A stretch of 64,000 bases of DNA from Stenotrophomonas sp. 24(2023) (GTDB lineage: Bacteria > Pseudomonadota > Gammaproteobacteria > Xanthomonadales > Xanthomonadaceae): contig NZ_CP133160.1 of assembly GCF_030913365.1 (NCBI RefSeq), positions 1,674,001 to 1,738,000 of the forward strand. The letters are read 5' to 3'. The notes below the pieces were generated by a model that worked only from the letters and a program-made list of their open reading frames with translations, searched no databases and was not told where the DNA came from. Made by a program: the position numbers and the translations under genes. Shown here piece after piece: positions 43,981 through 48,613 of this stretch (positions within the stretch are counted from its first letter, which is position 1; each line of letters begins with the position of its first letter).

Positions 43981-44037
43981 CGGAACGACTCCAGCGGATG
44001 GTGTCGCGAGCCTAGCAGCGAACCGCACGCGAGTGTT

Positions 44038-44081
44038 CACAAAACGTTATACATCCGCACACCGCGGAACACTGTTTTGTG
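44038..44081. promoter_or_regulatory. Spaced inverted repeat in divergent promoter region
   Basis: CACAAAAC (44038-44045) and GTTTTGTG (44074-44081) are perfect 8-bp inverted half sites, 28 bases apart. A TATAAC -10-like hexamer for the methyltransferase gene lies next to the first half site on the minus strand. They could be a repressor's half sites for both divergent genes. Confidence 0.45.
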
Positions 44082-44151
44082 GTCACCGCCGCAACGCGGT
44101 AACACGCTGCGCCGTATGCTGGTTTCCTTGTCCCCCACGGAGACCGTGCCC

Positions 44152-45132
44152 ATGACGGCAACCCGCGAACTGGGCCGTTCCGGCCTGCATGTGCGTCCCA
44201 TCGCCTTCGGCGGCAACGTGTTCGGCTGGAGCGCCGATGAGAAGGCGACCTTCGCCCTGCTCGACGCCTTCGTCGATGCCGGCTTCAACCTGGTCGATAC
44301 CGCCGATGTCTATTCAGCCTGGGCGCCCGGCAATGCCGGTGGCGAGTCGGAAACGCTGATCGGCAAATGGCTGGCCCGCAGCGGCAAGCGCGACCGGATC
44401 GTGCTGGCGACCAAGGTCGGCAAATGGGCCGAACGCCCCGGCCTGTCGGCCGACAACATCAACGCGGCGGTCGAGGAATCGCTGCGCCGCCTGCAGACCG
44501 ATGCCATCGATCTGTACCAGGCCCATGAGGACGATGAATCCACGCCGCTGGAAGCGACGCTGGCCGCGTTCGGCCGGCTGATCGAGCAGGGCAAGGTGCG
44601 TGCGATCGGTGCATCCAACTACAGCGCCACGCGCCTGGCCGACGCACTGAAGGTATCGGCCGACTACAAGCTGCCGCGTTATGAAACGCTGCAGCCGGAG
44701 TACAACCTGTACGACCGCACCGGCTATGAAGCGGAGCTGGAACCGCTGGTCCGCAGCGAAGGCATCGGTGTGATCGGCTACTACTCGCTGGCCAGCGGCT
44801 TCCTCAGTGGCAAGTACCGCCGCAGCGAGGACGCCGCGCGCAGCAGCGCGCGTGGCGAGACCGTGGTCCGGCGTTACCTCAATGCACGCGGGCTGCGCAT
44901 CCTGGCCGCACTCGATGACGTGGCCAGCAAGCACGGTGCCAGTGCCGCGCAGGTCGCGCTGGCGTGGCTGATCGCACGCCCGTCGGTCACCGCGCCGATC
45001 GTCAGCGCGACCTCGGTCGAGCAGCTGCACGACCTGCTCAAGGCGGCGACGCTGTCGTTGTCTGCACAGGACCTGGCCGAGCTGGACGAAGCCAGCGTGG
45101 ATGCCGAAGAAACCGCGACGGAAAATAATTGA
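44152..45132 (+). CDS. Aldo/keto reductase
   Basis: The 326-residue NADPH-dependent oxidoreductase has the catalytic set Asp and Tyr in DTADVYSAW, Lys in ATKVGKWA and His in QAHEDDES, and the cofactor segments GASNYSATRLA and PIVSATSVEQL. It belongs to the AKR group that includes YajO- and YghZ-like proteins. Substrate unknown. It is the last conventional gene before the 1-kb leader interval of the slipin-rtcB locus. Confidence 0.92.
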   Translation: MTATRELGRSGLHVRPIAFGGNVFGWSADEKATFALLDAFVDAGFNLVDTADVYSAWAPGNAGGESETLIGKWLARSGKRDRIVLATKVGKWAERPGLSADNINAAVEESLRRLQTDAIDLYQAHEDDESTPLEATLAAFGRLIEQGKVRAIGASNYSATRLADALKVSADYKLPRYETLQPEYNLYDRTGYEAELEPLVRSEGIGVIGYYSLASGFLSGKYRRSEDAARSSARGETVVRRYLNARGLRILAALDDVASKHGASAAQVALAWLIARPSVTAPIVSATSVEQLHDLLKAATLSLSAQDLAELDEASVDAEETATENN

Positions 45133-45141
45133 AGAAAATGG

Positions 45142-45170
45142 TTGCGCACGATTAAACCGTGGTTTATCGT
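45142..45170 (+). promoter_or_regulatory. Candidate promoter inside a large dyad
   Basis: TTGCGC at 45142-45147 and TATCGT at 45165-45170 are 17 bases apart and would start RNA near 45177. The whole box is a nearly perfect hairpin (45140-45177): TGCGCACGAT and ATCGTGCGCA arms, with AAACC/GGTTT inside. The dyad could be an operator, or the terminator of the aldo/keto reductase mRNA. Confidence 0.4.
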
Positions 45171-45176
45171 GCGCAC

Positions 45177-45391
45177 CATCCAAACCACACAGATGAACTG
45201 CTGCTCCGCCATGAACGCGCCCATTTTTGCCAAACACGACCTGCTGCCATGCTTCTGCATGGACGTGACGTCGCGTGCGCGGCGCACGGACACGCAGCTC
45301 ACAACGGCCTGATTCCCGCCCTGCGGAGATCGGCCACCCCGATCTCCGAGGCCTGACGACGCCCTCGGAACGCAAGTCCCGGGGGCGTTTT
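45177..45391 (+). ncRNA. Candidate attenuator leader or small RNA
   Basis: The roughly 215-base transcript would begin after the dyad promoter and end at a strong intrinsic terminator. It contains a 39-codon frame whose stop is 11 bases before a perfect 10-bp stem (CGGAGATCGG, loop CCACC, CCGATCTCCG at 45324-45348), then the terminator. This layout is that of ribosome-controlled attenuation, with slipin and rtcB as the next genes on the strand. It might equally be an independent small RNA. No Rfam family is recognised. Confidence 0.45.
45193..45312 (+). CDS. Possible 39-residue leader peptide, Cys-rich
   Basis: The frame from ATG 45193 to TGA 45312 encodes a peptide with Cys-Cys at 3-4 and Cys-Phe-Cys at 20-22; an internal ATG at 45211 gives a shorter form. 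There is no good Shine-Dalgarno, so translation is uncertain. Its position just before two stems and a terminator is the reason to list it. If it is a leader, cysteine-codon stalling would be the natural control, but that is inference. Confidence 0.25.
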   Translation: MNCCSAMNAPIFAKHDLLPCFCMDVTSRARRTDTQLTTA

Positions 45392-45398
45392 CGTTTGC
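45359..45398 (+). terminator. Strong intrinsic terminator (possible attenuator)
   Basis: ACGCCCTCGG (45359-45368) pairs with CCGGGGGCGT (45379-45388) along ten pairs with one T-G wobble, loop of ten, then TTTTCGTTT. Nothing conventional is encoded just upstream except the candidate leader, so it ends that RNA or regulates read-through toward slipin. Confidence 0.85.
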
Positions 45399-45485
45399 GT
45401 CGGCACAAGGACCCGTGATGCCAGAAGCACGTTGCCAGCGGCTTAGCGCCGCGCACTGACAGCCGCCCTGCCGGCGCGCCGGAGG

Positions 45486-45559
45486 ATTATCTTCCGGCCG
45501 CGTGGCGGCGCCTGGATATTATCTGCATCGCCTCAGAACATTATCGCCTGTCGATAATG
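45486..45559 (+). promoter_or_regulatory. Cluster of ATTATC sites with one perfect dyad
   Basis: ATTATC occurs at 45486, 45518 and 45540, spaced 32 and 22 bases (about three and two helical turns). The third copy is half of a perfect dyad, CATTATCG (45539-45546), five-base spacer, CGATAATG (45552-45559). In such GC-rich DNA this cluster is striking and suggests a regulator binding upstream of the tRNA-like RNA. Confidence 0.5.
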
Positions 45560-45662
45560 CCGGTGGCCTGCACCTGCGATTTTCCAACGGTCCCGTTTCA
45601 AGCACGGGCTGGTGCGCGCGGCAGTGCCGTGGCGTATGCCGGAGGTCGTGGACAGGCCATTG

Positions 45663-45728
45663 ACTGGATCGCCTGCTGGACGCAGGCACCGGCTTGCCGG
45701 TGTCGCGGTTCGATTCCGCGCGGTTCCC
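45663..45728 (+). ncRNA. tRNA-like module A
   Basis: Begins with ACTGGAT. A 17-base D-arm-like hairpin GCCTGCTGGACGCAGGC (45671-45687) is followed by a mini-stem ACCGG-CTTG-CCGGT (45688-45701) in place of an anticodon arm, then a T-arm CGCGG-TTCGATT-CCGCG (45704-45720). No acceptor stem or 3' CCA can be formed. It aligns with module B and is 66 bases before it, so the two are tandem copies. Probably a tRNA mimic and not a tRNA. Confidence 0.55.
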
Positions 45729-45803
45729 ACTGGATAGCTCAGTCGGGTAGAGCAACGGACAGTGCGTCCGTCTGTCGTGGGTTCGATTCCCACTCCACAC
45801 ATG
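45729..45803 (+). ncRNA. tRNA-like module B
   Basis: Begins with ACTGGAT. D-arm GCTCAGTCGGGTAGAGC (45737-45753), anticodon-like arm ACGGA-CAGTGCG-TCCGT (45755-45771), five-base variable loop, T-arm GTGGG-TTCGATT-CCCAC (45777-45793). The acceptor can pair only as TGGA with TCCA. Position 33 is A and not the universal U, and no CCA follows. A general tRNA fold without aminoacylation or decoding features argues for a tRNA mimic linked to the slipin-rtcB genes. Confidence 0.6.
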
Positions 45804-45866
45804 ACCTGTCACGTCATGACATCGCGCAACACCCGGGGCAACCGCCCCAGCGGCCATCGCTGCCGT

Positions 45867-46123
45867 CCCGGCCCCACCTTCGGGTGCGGCCGGGCTGGCA
45901 ACGCGCCGCACGCCGGGCCCCGGCCCGTCGTCCACGCCCGCCCCGCTCCACCGGGTACACCGTACCGGGTGCAGCGCAGGCGGCAGCAACGACACACCGG
46001 ATGCTCCGCGTGCCGCGCGTCCCCGATGGCCGCCCTCTTCCGCCGGCCGTGCCCCTGCACGGCCGGCCCTCGCCCCGACCGGTTCGACCCGGGCCGGAAC
46101 CGGCGATTTCCCCGGGTCGAACC
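45867..46123 (+). ncRNA. Structured leader upstream of slipin
   Basis: Successive perfect or near-perfect hairpins: CCCGGCC...GGCCGGG (about 45867-45894), an ACCGGGTAC/GTACCGGGT pair (about 45949-45969), CCGGCCGTGC-CCCT-GCACGGCCGG (46043-46066), and GGTTCGACCCGGG with CCCGGGTCGAACC (13 bp, 46081-46123). The last stem ends 14 bases before the slipin ribosome binding site and carries the GGTTCGA sequence of a T-arm. The region has no convincing gene; it may be an RNA-protein binding leader. Confidence 0.5.
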
Positions 46124-46151
46124 ACCAGAGCCCTATCAAGGAGACACTCCC

Positions 46152-47276
46152 ATGTTCTGGACCAAGAAGGTCGTGATCGGCGACGGCGAGCGCGGCCTGG
46201 TGTATCGCAACCGCCGCTTCCAGCAGATCCTGCTGCCCGGCGTGCACCGCCTGTCGGTGTTCGGTGGCGTGCCGCAGGTGAGCGTGCACAACGTCGCCAA
46301 CGGCGCCGCCTATGCCGGCAACGACCAGGACAGCCTGCTCGAGGCACTCGGCACGCAGCTCGGCCCGCACTTCGTGCTGGCCAACGTCGGTGCACAGCAG
46401 GTAGGCCTGCTGCTGCGCAACGGCCGCATCGACGAGGTACTGCCGCCGGGCAGCCGCCGCCTGTACTGGCAGGGTGCGGTCGCCACCGAAGTGCAGCTGC
46501 TGCCGCTGGAGGACGAGCCGCGCGTGCCGACGGCCGTGCTGCACCGCCTGGGCCAGCTGGGCGTGCTGCCGCGGGTGGCCACGCTCAGCACGGTGCCGAG
46601 CGAATCGGTCGGCCTGCTGTTCATCGACGGCACGCTGCGGCGGGCACTCGGCGCGGGCCTGCACGCCTTCTGGAACTTCAACGGCAATGTGTCGGTGGAG
46701 CGTGTGGAACTGCGTGCGCGTTCGCTGGACGTGGCCGGCCAGGAACTGCTCAGCCGCGACAAGGTGACCCTGCGGGTGAACCTGGCCGCGACCGTGCAGG
46801 TGGTGGACCCGGTGCTGGCGCACCGCACGCTCAGCCAGGCCGATGAGTTCGTCTACCGGCAGCTGCAGTTCGGCCTGCGCCAGGCGATCGCCACGCGCAG
46901 CCTGGACGAACTGCTGGCCGACAAGGCGGCACTGGATGGCGAGATCGCCAGCCACGTGCGGGCGGCGATCGACGGCCACGGCGTGCAGTTGCTGGGCGTG
47001 GGCATCAAGGACGTGATCCTGCCCGGCGAGATGAAGGAGATCCTCAACGGCGTCGTACTGGCCGAGAAGCAGGCACAGGCCAGCGTGATCCGCCGCCGCG
47101 AGGAGGCCAACGCCACCCGCTCGCAGCTCAACACCGCCAAGCTGATCGAGGACAACCCGGTGCTGATGCGGTTGAAGGAACTGGAAGCGCTGGAAAAGGT
47201 CACCGAGAAGATCGACAAGCTCACCGTGTTCGGCGGCCTGGATGGCGTGCTGAAGCAGCTGGTGACGATGAAGTAA
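46152..47276 (+). CDS. Slipin (SPFH/band-7 domain protein), RtcB-associated
   Basis: The 374-residue product has an SPFH domain at about 150-290 (SVGLLFIDGTLRRALGAGLHAFWN, VTLRVNLAATVQVVDPVLAHRTL, ELLADKAALDGEIASHVRAAIDGHGVQLLGVGIKDVILPGEMKEIL) and a helical C-terminus (EKQAQASVIRRREEANATRSQLNTA). A duplicated N-terminal half is weakly visible (ERGLVYRNRRFQQILLPGVHRL repeats the VGLLFIDGTLRRAL pattern). There is no transmembrane anchor, unlike stomatins. AAGGAGACACTCCC precedes the ATG. The next gene, 58 bases on, is rtcB with a very similar start region, so they are one operon. Its partner is probably RtcB or the tRNA-like RNA. Confidence 0.88.
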   Translation: MFWTKKVVIGDGERGLVYRNRRFQQILLPGVHRLSVFGGVPQVSVHNVANGAAYAGNDQDSLLEALGTQLGPHFVLANVGAQQVGLLLRNGRIDEVLPPGSRRLYWQGAVATEVQLLPLEDEPRVPTAVLHRLGQLGVLPRVATLSTVPSESVGLLFIDGTLRRALGAGLHAFWNFNGNVSVERVELRARSLDVAGQELLSRDKVTLRVNLAATVQVVDPVLAHRTLSQADEFVYRQLQFGLRQAIATRSLDELLADKAALDGEIASHVRAAIDGHGVQLLGVGIKDVILPGEMKEILNGVVLAEKQAQASVIRRREEANATRSQLNTAKLIEDNPVLMRLKELEALEKVTEKIDKLTVFGGLDGVLKQLVTMK

Positions 47277-47334
47277 GGGGGGCTGCGGTGGCGCAGGGAC
47301 GCGCCGCCGGCCCCACAGGAAGAGGGACACTCTC

Positions 47335-48555
47335 ATGGATACGCAACAGAACTACCAATGGCTGCACGCCGAGGGCACCACGCCGATCAAGGGCTGGGTG
47401 AACGGCGTGGCGCTGGAAGCGCAGGCGCATGCGCAGCTGCACAACATCGCCGCCGTTCCATTCGTCGGGCCGTGGGTGGCGGTGATGCCCGACGTGCACC
47501 TGGGCAAGGGCGCGACCGTCGGCTCGGTGATCCCGACCCGTGGCGCGATCATTCCGGCGGCGGTCGGCGTGGACATCGGCTGCGGCATGGCCGCGGTACG
47601 CACCACCCTGCGCGCCAGCGACCTGCCCGATGACCTGCGGCAGCTGCGCAACAGCATCGAGCGCAGCATCCCGGTCGGCAACGGCCGCGGCGGCGAGCAC
47701 CAGCGCATGCCCGACAGCATCCACACCCGCCTGGTGCAATCCGGGCTGGCGCAGGGGCTGGAACGGATCAAGGACAAGCACCGCCGCATCCGTACCGACA
47801 AGCTGGACCGCCAGCTGGGCACGCTCGGCGGTGGCAACCACTTCATCGAACTGTGCCTGGACGAGACGGACGCGGTGTGGGTGATGCTGCACAGCGGTTC
47901 GCGCGGCACCGGCAACCTGATCGGCACGTACTTCATCGAGAAGGCGCGCGAGGAACTGGCACGGCGCGTGCTCGGCTTCCACCTGCCGGACAAGGACCTG
48001 GCGTTCTTCATGGAAGGCGAGGCGCTGTTCGACGATTACGTCGAAGCGGTGTCCTGGGCCCAGGACTACGCACGGCAGAACCGCGAAGCGATGATGGCGC
48101 GCGTGCTGGCCGAGATGCGCCACCGCCTGCCGACGTTCCAGCTGGCGGCGATGGCGGTGAACTGCCACCACAACTACGTGCAGAAGGAAACGCACCACGG
48201 GCAGGACCTGCTGGTCACCCGCAAGGGCGCGGTGAGTGCGCGCGCCGGCGAGCTGGGCATCATTCCCGGCAGCATGGGTACGCGCAGCTACATCGTGCGC
48301 GGCAAGGGCAACGCGGACAGCTTCCACAGCTGCAGCCACGGTGCCGGCCGCGCGATGAGCCGTGGCACGGCGCGCCAGCAGATCACGCTGGCCCAGCACC
48401 GCCAAGCCACCGCGCACGTCGAATGCCGCAAGGACAGCGGCGTGCTGGACGAATCACCGGCGGCGTACAAGTCGATCGACGATGTGATGGCCGCCCAGCG
48501 CGACCTGGTCGAGGTGGTGCATACCCTGCGCCAGGTGCTGTGCGTGAAGGGGTGA
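47335..48555 (+). CDS. rtcB: RNA-splicing ligase RtcB (3'-phosphate/5'-OH RNA ligase)
   Basis: RtcB joins 2',3'-cyclic phosphate or 3'-phosphate ends to 5'-OH ends in RNA using GTP and Mn2+. The 406-residue protein matches E. coli RtcB in length. Metal and nucleotide residues are visible: Asp80 and Cys83 in DIGCGM, His170 in GGGNHF, His187 in HSGSRG, His279/His280 in NCHHNY, and the guanylylated His336 in SHGAGR; GIIPGSMG is also conserved. Neither rtcA nor the regulator rtcR adjoins, which distinguishes it from the E. coli operon. A strong hairpin follows the stop. Confidence 0.97.
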   Translation: MDTQQNYQWLHAEGTTPIKGWVNGVALEAQAHAQLHNIAAVPFVGPWVAVMPDVHLGKGATVGSVIPTRGAIIPAAVGVDIGCGMAAVRTTLRASDLPDDLRQLRNSIERSIPVGNGRGGEHQRMPDSIHTRLVQSGLAQGLERIKDKHRRIRTDKLDRQLGTLGGGNHFIELCLDETDAVWVMLHSGSRGTGNLIGTYFIEKAREELARRVLGFHLPDKDLAFFMEGEALFDDYVEAVSWAQDYARQNREAMMARVLAEMRHRLPTFQLAAMAVNCHHNYVQKETHHGQDLLVTRKGAVSARAGELGIIPGSMGTRSYIVRGKGNADSFHSCSHGAGRAMSRGTARQQITLAQHRQATAHVECRKDSGVLDESPAAYKSIDDVMAAQRDLVEVVHTLRQVLCVKG

Positions 48556-48558
48556 AGG

Positions 48559-48592
48559 GCCGGGCGCATGTCGACGGTGGCATGCGCCCGGC
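48559..48592 (+). terminator. Hairpin after rtcB
   Basis: GCCGGGCGCATG (48559-48570) and CATGCGCCCGGC (48581-48592) form a perfect 12-bp stem with ten-base loop, four bases after the rtcB stop. No T-tract; it could also stop the convergent flavoprotein transcript. Confidence 0.6.
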
Positions 48593-48613
48593 AGGTGAGG
48601 ACGCCAGCCCGGC

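Follow-up and report, generated by a model that had tools for sequence, protein, structure and literature searches.

Tandem tRNA-like modules within a large structured RNA upstream of slipin genes in Stenotrophomonas and other bacteria

Results

The locus and its two tRNA-like modules

The window analyzed here is a 64,000-nt stretch of the 4.52-Mb chromosome of Stenotrophomonas sp. 24(2023), in which a slipin gene is followed by the gene of the RNA ligase RtcB (Table 1). The slipin contains a Band_7 domain (Pfam PF01145, 107.6 bits against a cut-off of 23.6), which places it in the SPFH family, and its closest named matches, among the best 80 of 527, come from Stenotrophomonas maltophilia (86-88%). 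Fold searches with the structure predicted by AlphaFold2 gave stomatin, HflK and prohibitin chains as best matches, and the predicted structure includes the three SPFH-entry beta units. Hydropathy revealed no transmembrane-like segment in the protein. A homology of the N-terminal units with the major vault protein, in which tandem MVP repeats precede an SPFH-like shoulder, is weakly indicated and no more than an idea. A phage origin was rejected, as a search of 50,697 phage records at E 1e-5 gave no slipin match. In Burkholderia stagnalis (L112 3086-4678) the slipin has 530 aa and a duplicated N-terminal region. On the 5' side of the RNA described below, the window contains a 39-codon frame starting MNCCSAMN (45193-45312), which by eye resembles a leader peptide or attenuator and is followed at 45310-45400 by hairpins and a T-rich end, also seen by eye.

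Table 1. Positions of the genes and RNA features in the window.
Feature	Position	Strand	Description and basis
P1 hairpin	45539..45559	+	8-bp stem CATTATCG/CGATAATG, loop CCTGT; fold
P2 hairpin	45588..45611	+	T-loop-like loop TTCAAGC; CGG-CCCGT/ACGGG-CTG
P3	45612..45637	+	GTGCGC/GCGTAT helix, apical CGGC/GCCG stem; sequence strongly conserved
Module A (tRNA-like)	45666..45726	+	fold; covariation in relatives
Module B (tRNA-like)	45731..45797	+	Rfam tRNA match; covariation in relatives
P4 hairpin	45800..45818	+	CATGAC-CTGTCAC-GTCATG; stem shows paired variation among relatives
P5 hairpin	45835..45848	+	GGGGC/GCCCC; fold and relatives
P6 domain	45850..46033	+	helix 45850-45859/46024-46033 (GCGGCCATCG/CGATGGCCGC) closes a multibranched domain
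P8 hairpin	46081..46123	+	GGTTCGACCCGGG..CCCGGGTCGAACC, a short way 5' of the ribosome-binding site; predicted from the window fold only
slipin	46152..47276	+	SPFH/Band_7 protein: three SPFH-entry beta units, SPFH domain, C-terminal helices
rtcB RNA ligase	47335..48555	+	next gene 3' of slipin; Pfam PF01139, 418.9 bits

The first-pass annotation had noticed, upstream of these genes, two units beginning with ACTGGAT and 66 bases apart, which indeed lie at 45663 and 45729, and folding confirmed that each of them forms a D-like arm, a stem in the anticodon place and a T-arm with a TTCGATT loop. In module A these arms occupy 45673-45685, 45688-45701 and 45704-45720, and the anticodon-place arm carries the four-base loop CTTG, as described. 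In module B they occupy 45737-45753, 45755-45771 and 45777-45793; when the anticodon stem is drawn with 5 bp the loop is CAGTGCG, with A instead of U at position 33, again in agreement with the annotation. Both modules had also been said to lack an acceptor stem and a CCA end, which has to be amended. The acceptors are short or wobbly, not absent: the single-strand fold pairs 45666-45672 with 45720-45726 in module A (7 bp including two G.U, base 45720 being ambiguous between this stem and the closing pair of the T-stem), and TGGA at 45731-45734 with TCCA at 45794-45797 in module B (4 bp). No CCA follows module B in the window, as stated; one does follow module A, directly 3' of its acceptor (45727-45729).

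Module B was matched by the Rfam tRNA model (42.1 bits, cut-off 29, E 1.1e-6). Module A was not matched by this model and reached only YrlA and mascRNA, both below threshold. ARAGORN called no tRNA in the whole window, and tRNA matches were the only ones above Rfam 15 thresholds in the window (44000-48600) and in thirteen relatives' loci.

Conservation and covariation of the modules

Relatives were found by slipin alignment and consisted of 80 named slipin loci in GTDB genomes (the best 80 of 527), most of them labelled Lysobacterales and a few being metagenome bins labelled otherwise; we refer to them as the Lysobacterales loci. The pair of A and B T-loops was present at the right spacing in 73 of 81 sequences (the best 80 of 527 loci and the window), and three of the eight loci without it have less than 400 nt upstream (L047, L084 and L107). 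For the covariation analysis, 56 of the 73 sequences were aligned by sequence only, nine near-identical Stenotrophomonas copies and eight further near-duplicates being left out. RNAalifold recovered from this alignment most of both cloverleaves unprompted, with 33 pairs of which 24 were compensatory; the D-stem of module A was not among them. In the full 38-pair structure of the two modules, 94.6% of the cells pair and 26 pairs are changed on both sides across the 56 sequences. Compared with shuffles that ignore relatedness, the cells changed on both sides were 240 against 62.8 +- 6.6, the covariation score was 0.352 against 0.128 +- 0.006, and none of 500 shuffles attained any of the five measures. 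Sliding the pairing partners destroyed the signal.

The acceptors followed the same pattern. In module B, where the stem has 4-5 bp in 66 of 73 relatives, paired changes gave the variants TGGA/TCCA, GGATA/TATCC and TGAGA/TCTCA, and in module A of congeners pairing was kept through the 3'-strand changes CGGTTC, CGGTCC and CGATCC. The proposal that non-decoding tRNA-like modules are conserved here with covarying stems therefore came through the comparison among relatives that had been named as its refutation test.

A larger structured RNA contains both modules

The tandem tRNA-like observation is real, and the structure is larger than first noted: about 585 nt of the slipin leader (45539-46123) are structured, so that 45663..45803, the interval given at first, covers about a quarter of it. 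On the 5' side, a perfect hairpin of at least 9 bp is found near the place of P1 in 39 of 52 relatives (3.7% of shuffles ignoring relatedness), and the P2 stem covaries, with 97.8% of cells paired and 45 double-changed cells against 8.3 +- 2.4 in shuffles that ignore relatedness. A covariance model of P2-P3, R1, matches the window at 45581-45644 with 69.4 bits, the window being one of its 35 rows; the others are 29 of the 80 loci and L112, L116, L121, L126 and L127.

On the 3' side, a P4 stem of at least 6 bp occurs in 51 of 72 relatives, compared with 7.2% of shuffles ignoring relatedness, and P5 has 27 double-changed cells against 8.5 in shuffles of the same kind, relatedness again ignored. 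In the long-range helix of P6, double-sided changes affect 10 of the 11 pairs across 44 relatives, the structure being derived from the same alignment. With this structure, taken from the tested alignment, and with shuffles ignoring relatedness, the double-changed cells were 25 against 3.1 (maximum 8) for the helix; for the branches, tested on the same alignment, they were 82 against 31 (P6a) and 138 against 42 (P6b). The window lies outside the 44-sequence alignment, and its P6 has a different sequence and full pairing in the fold.

The tRNA shape is kept while decoding features are lost

With a 5-bp stem, the anticodon loop of module B has seven bases in 60 of 73 relatives, and these 60 loops carry 28 different triplets, with U33 in 35 and A37 in 54. 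By automatic parse (n = 73), the module A loop has four bases in 41 relatives, several of these being GNRA tetraloops, and seven bases in 10. In one genus outside the class, three loci (L186, L187 and L188) share an identical module B anticodon stem and differ in the loop that it carries. Among the features of a functional tRNA, an anticodon constant within one orthologous gene was not found in module B, and a 7-base anticodon loop with U33 was found consistently in neither module. A 7-bp acceptor with a 3' CCA was absent from module B and partly present in module A, since the automatic parse of its acceptor (n = 73) gave 5-7 contiguous bp in 36 relatives, none in 31 and no parse in 5, and an NCCA pattern lies 3' of the acceptor in 48 of 73.

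Ordinary tRNA genes or pseudogenes, which mobile elements or tRNA arrays may have left behind, would account for the many copies called tRNA by ARAGORN and Rfam: ARAGORN made 97 calls with many isotype names on the 80 relatives' leaders, leaving 16 empty. Real tRNA arrays also adjoin some loci (see below). We nevertheless consider this origin extremely improbable and rejected it on account of covariation with free anticodons: the stems are selected and the triplet is not, the acceptor of module B is short and lacks a CCA end, and covariation is seen in the adjoining P2-P3 and P6 domains too. For annotation this is a caution: many genes called "tRNA" ahead of such slipin genes are not tRNAs.

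Since compensatory changes preserve both modules while the triplet of B drifts and A often has a tetraloop, the tRNA shape is selected and decoding is not. This is an unusual situation, as the anticodon differs even among congeneric species. Judged by comparison of sequences, modules A and B are shown to be non-decoding tRNA mimics in a large structured RNA upstream of slipin, on the same strand.

Co-occurrence of the RNA with slipin

R1 was found in the window and in 76 of the 80 Lysobacterales loci (best 80 of 527); as 30 of the 35 rows of the model come from this set, matches in the same species are not independent. The four loci without R1 have 121-783 nt upstream, and in the one with 783 nt (L059) module B is present and P2-P3 was not found. 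In a survey of the family, slipin was detected in 61 of 198 genomes (E 1.2e-79 or better), and R1 at E < 1e-7 in 57 of these 61 and, at that score, in none of the 137 genomes without slipin. The four slipin genomes without R1 comprise one with the tandem (G112, 108.9 bits with R2, a model of the tandem), two in which slipin is near a contig edge (G092 and G119), and G001. In a survey of the class, slipin (E 1e-50) was present in 21 of 369 genomes and all nine R1 matches at E 5e-4 or better fell in slipin genomes, five of them genomes of the model and four (G071, G289, G434 and G435) not in it. Neither survey yielded a confident P2-P3 copy where the genome lacked slipin. Weak P2-P3 matches without this slipin numbered three in the family (G030, G076 and G083; E 1.2e-4 to 9e-4) and ten in the class (E 6.5e-4 to 0.0097); at five of these thirteen (the three family matches, G425 and G229) there was no tandem and no ARAGORN tRNA, the best R2 score being 11 bits.

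Class and phylum sampling provided 30 slipin loci outside the family. In 28 of them, from 19 families, a same-strand R2 match of 36.7-125.7 bits preceded slipin, at 193-609 nt from its start and in one locus at 1352 nt (median 374 nt). R1 at E 0.02 or better, with R2 or alone, was obtained in 19 of the 30, four of the 19 being model rows (L116, L121, L126 and L127). R2 is not specific, as ordinary tRNA pairs score up to 84 bits (L181), so the presence of the RNA outside the family rests also on its position and on P2-P3, with R2 as support and not proof. G435 has slipin and P2-P3 with no R2 match, and in G001 (slipin at 45% identity) and G256 slipin is present and the RNA was not found.

Outside Lysobacterales the number and order of the modules vary, from one to three. 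The tandem is present in Burkholderia, in Photobacterium and in genomes outside the class. By eye, what is left of the RNA in the examined records of E. coli and Citrobacter is a single T-arm together with pieces resembling P2/P3, and a Bacillota record has a P2-P3 match of 22.8 bits (E 6.5e-4) together with two T-arm-like hairpins, likewise seen by eye. Two loci with the RNA shrunken to one T-arm (L204 and L205) have a nucleotidyltransferase gene 3' of slipin, and the leader-slipin stretch of L204 occurs at no less than 80% coverage in 1621 of 5426 E. coli genomes. Directly 3' of slipin in L187 (7084-7212) there is a match below threshold to the Brucella sRNA BASRCI27 (43.5 bits, cut-off 59.8).

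This distribution bears on the idea of a free decoy, in which released modules would soak up anticodon nucleases or tRNA-modifying enzymes and slipin would be a mere neighbour. The four-base loop of A, the arbitrary triplet of B and the NCCA after A are in its favour, as is the competitive-inhibitor role that Hughes et al. considered for YrlA in passages of PMC7790460. We regard it as unlikely, given that the family and class surveys gave no confident P2-P3 copy without slipin and that the modules are embedded in a larger fold.

Neighbouring genes and the place of RtcB

In the Lysobacterales loci rtcB follows slipin in 76 of 80 cases (best 80 of 527), 61 of them within 400 nt; in L069, L076 and L099 it is absent from the 4 kb downstream. 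Outside the family rtcB is near slipin in only 15 of 30 loci, "near" meaning at least 60 bits within the 7.6-15 kb retrieved, some of these stretches ending at contig edges. A search for PF01139 in 17 genomes, namely the 15 without a nearby rtcB and two with one, revealed no RtcB anywhere in six of the 15 (G548, G606, G669, G704, G767 and G785). R2 matches upstream of slipin also occur in genomes without RtcB, and in L172 and L196 rtcB comes first, followed by the RNA and then by slipin.

The RNA had been proposed to bind RtcB or slipin. Half of the outside loci lacking a nearby rtcB and six genomes lacking RtcB suggest that the partner is slipin, not RtcB, and RtcB as an obligate partner was rejected on the same grounds. 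The frequency of rtcB after slipin in the relatives speaks for a substrate, scaffold or damage sensor of RtcB; the loci without rtcB, including the three with 4 kb downstream, and the genomes without PF01139 speak against it, and we hold such a role to be very unlikely. As far as sequence comparison goes, the RNA is shown to travel with slipin, not necessarily with RtcB.

Slipin genes are often members of RNA-repair operons. Among the loci with the RNA and slipin, some have rtcB, rtcA and rlaP as neighbours, and RtcR was found in 10 of 32 wide loci. Five of the RtcR loci (L112, L114, L182, L183 and L184) have a sigma54-like site, TGGCACGNNNNTCGCW, directly upstream of the RNA, 519-571 nt before slipin. 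On our own scale it scores 20 of 21; 31 regions were scanned, and as the best of 50 shuffles per region reached 17.5-21, a single site means little, and the shared place and sequence mean more. In the window, control by RtcR and sigma54 was rejected: PF06956 found no RtcR in its genome, hence none adjoining the operon, and the best site scores 16 of 21, where shuffles averaged 16.4.

Ordinary tRNA genes adjoin several loci: 14 in L103, 12 in L167 (besides the module), seven in L181, four in L178 and three in L185. The larger arrays (L103 30-2043, L167 940-4317 and L181 7373-9541) look like reserve sets of tRNAs maintained alongside genes for RNA repair.

Discussion

We tentatively favour, at a little short of an even chance, a reading in which a non-decoding tRNA-mimic RNA is made with slipin and acts as a ribonucleoprotein in a tRNA-damage response. 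The RNA would be produced together with slipin, and slipin, an SPFH protein that may form a ring as expected from a family known for rings and cages, would hold it. The kept D- and T-loops could then engage proteins that recognise the tRNA body, for instance repair enzymes or anticodon nucleases. The capped anticodon arm of A and the drifting triplet of B would make the modules poor cutting substrates and useless for decoding. In operons with rtcB, rtcA or rlaP, damaged tRNAs might in this way be brought to the repair enzymes, or repaired tRNAs protected. The link to tRNA damage is drawn from the rtcB, rtcA and rlaP neighbours, from the occurrence of RtcR in about a third of the wide loci, and from the activation of the rtcBA operon by damaged tRNAs through RtcR, reported in passages of PMC7790460 and PMC8619066. 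The ordinary tRNA arrays adjoining some loci, the Anabaena study described below and the lack of a transmembrane-like segment in the window slipin, which would suit a soluble protein, also speak for this reading.

The main rival is a cis-acting leader, which we consider a real possibility, if a rather doubtful one. The structured RNA would control the expression of slipin (or slipin-rtcB) or the processing of the mRNA, with the modules as a sensor that binds, for example, slipin, RNase P or a tRNA-damage enzyme; the free protein would repress, and damaged tRNA would titrate it off. A constant position upstream of slipin is equally expected for a regulatory leader, and the same strand and short distance outside the family, the hairpin predicted shortly before the ribosome-binding site, and the RNA still lying between rtcB and slipin where rtcB comes first all suit this explanation. 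So does the existence of a riboswitch reported to have a tRNA-like fold, yjdF. Against it stand the variable spacing between modules and slipin, the large P6 domain with its own covarying helices in between, and the sigma54-like promoter of the five RtcR loci, which suggests transcriptional control.

The P. aeruginosa locus bears on the ribonucleoprotein reading. We take PA4582 to be PaFlo8, the slipin gene of this species. The operon consists of PA4582, rtcB, PA4584 and rtcA with a divergent RtcR (passages of PMC8619066), and PA4582 was induced 3.2-fold in a peroxide microarray (passage of PMC1250226). According to passages of PMC13086221, deletion of PaFlo8, the SPFH gene of the rtc locus, had no detectable effect on pyocyanin, swimming or biofilm, which counts against the reading in that it makes a strong general role unlikely. 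Also against it are the two slipin genomes in which the RNA was not found, the varying number and order of modules outside Lysobacterales, and the reduced RNA of the E. coli and Citrobacter records.

In a wider and still more doubtful form, the RNA may belong to a widespread unnamed class, of about 600 nt in the window's relatives and with one to three embedded non-decoding mimics of tRNA. Such RNAs would enter a dedicated ribonucleoprotein whose protein part is a soluble SPFH protein with repeats, in place of Ro60 and Y RNA, also where there is no RtcB. If this were true, RNA-repair operons would contain another tRNA-mimic RNA, unrelated to the first and encoded next to a protein of its own, and one could test why bacteria able to repair tRNAs also produce imitations of them. 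Slipin would then be, to our knowledge, the first case of an SPFH protein that has an RNA dedicated to it.

Comparison with known systems

A literature search combining RtcB, slipin (or Band 7) and tRNA-like, with subscription papers outside its reach, gave no match, and the passages of seven related papers, including PMC11090510 and PMC9650030, do not describe an RNA upstream of slipin. The RtcR-sigma54 rtcBA operon of E. coli and Salmonella resembles some of the loci in its RtcR, sigma54-like site, rtcB, rtcA and rlaP; it differs in that the window's genome has no RtcR match and that the RNA and slipin also occur without RtcB. With stomatin, HflK, prohibitin and flotillin the window slipin shares the SPFH domain and a C-terminal helix, but it has no transmembrane-like segment, has three predicted SPFH-entry beta units and is preceded by a structured RNA. 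In Anabaena, passages of PMC10272220 report a repressor, TrcR, that acts on a tRNA operon and on rtcB, and a slipin gene is tabulated there among the genes that changed. Under translational stress, responses of tRNA genes, of rtcB and of slipin were thus recorded in a single study. There, however, the loci are separate and the trn operon consists of ordinary tRNA genes, and those passages describe no tandem tRNA mimic.

RNAs with a tRNA-like domain or fold include tmRNA, mascRNA and the yjdF riboswitch. Module A scores 26.8 bits with mascRNA, against a cut-off of 42.5. The Ro60/Rsr protein, to which the bacterial Y RNA YrlA binds as it does to PNPase, is ring-shaped. In the window YrlA (RF02553) gave 29.0 bits (E 0.0026) across the T-arm of A and the D-arm of B, and in L183 33.4 bits, both below the cut-off of 69. 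In the Rfam model the order is permuted, with the T-arm before the D-arm, and the modules run acceptor, D, anticodon place, T, acceptor. A tblastn search with the VWA (rsr-like) protein of Xanthomonas sacchari gave no match in the 80 loci or the 32 wide loci. YrlA-like RNAs of X. sacchari, one of them above the cut-off at 72.1 bits, adjoin the VWA gene in another operon. Score, order and the lack of a nearby rsr led us to reject membership in YrlA; a divergent YrlA is thus a scarcely credible explanation, while a shared function is possible. On an X. sacchari plasmid (L113 3267-3921), four YrlA-like RNAs stand in a row (60, 72, 62 and 33 bits) between a VWA-domain gene and rtcB, 3' of rtcR, in a separate repair operon of the same bacterial family.

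The parallel with tRNA-mimicking Y RNAs of RNA-repair operons, drawn in the first-pass annotation, is supported by these results. YrlA, placed in such operons by passages of PMC7790460, is likewise a tRNA mimic near rtcB, paired with the gene of a ring-shaped protein; here two non-permuted cloverleaves lie inside a larger structured RNA, and the neighbour is slipin.
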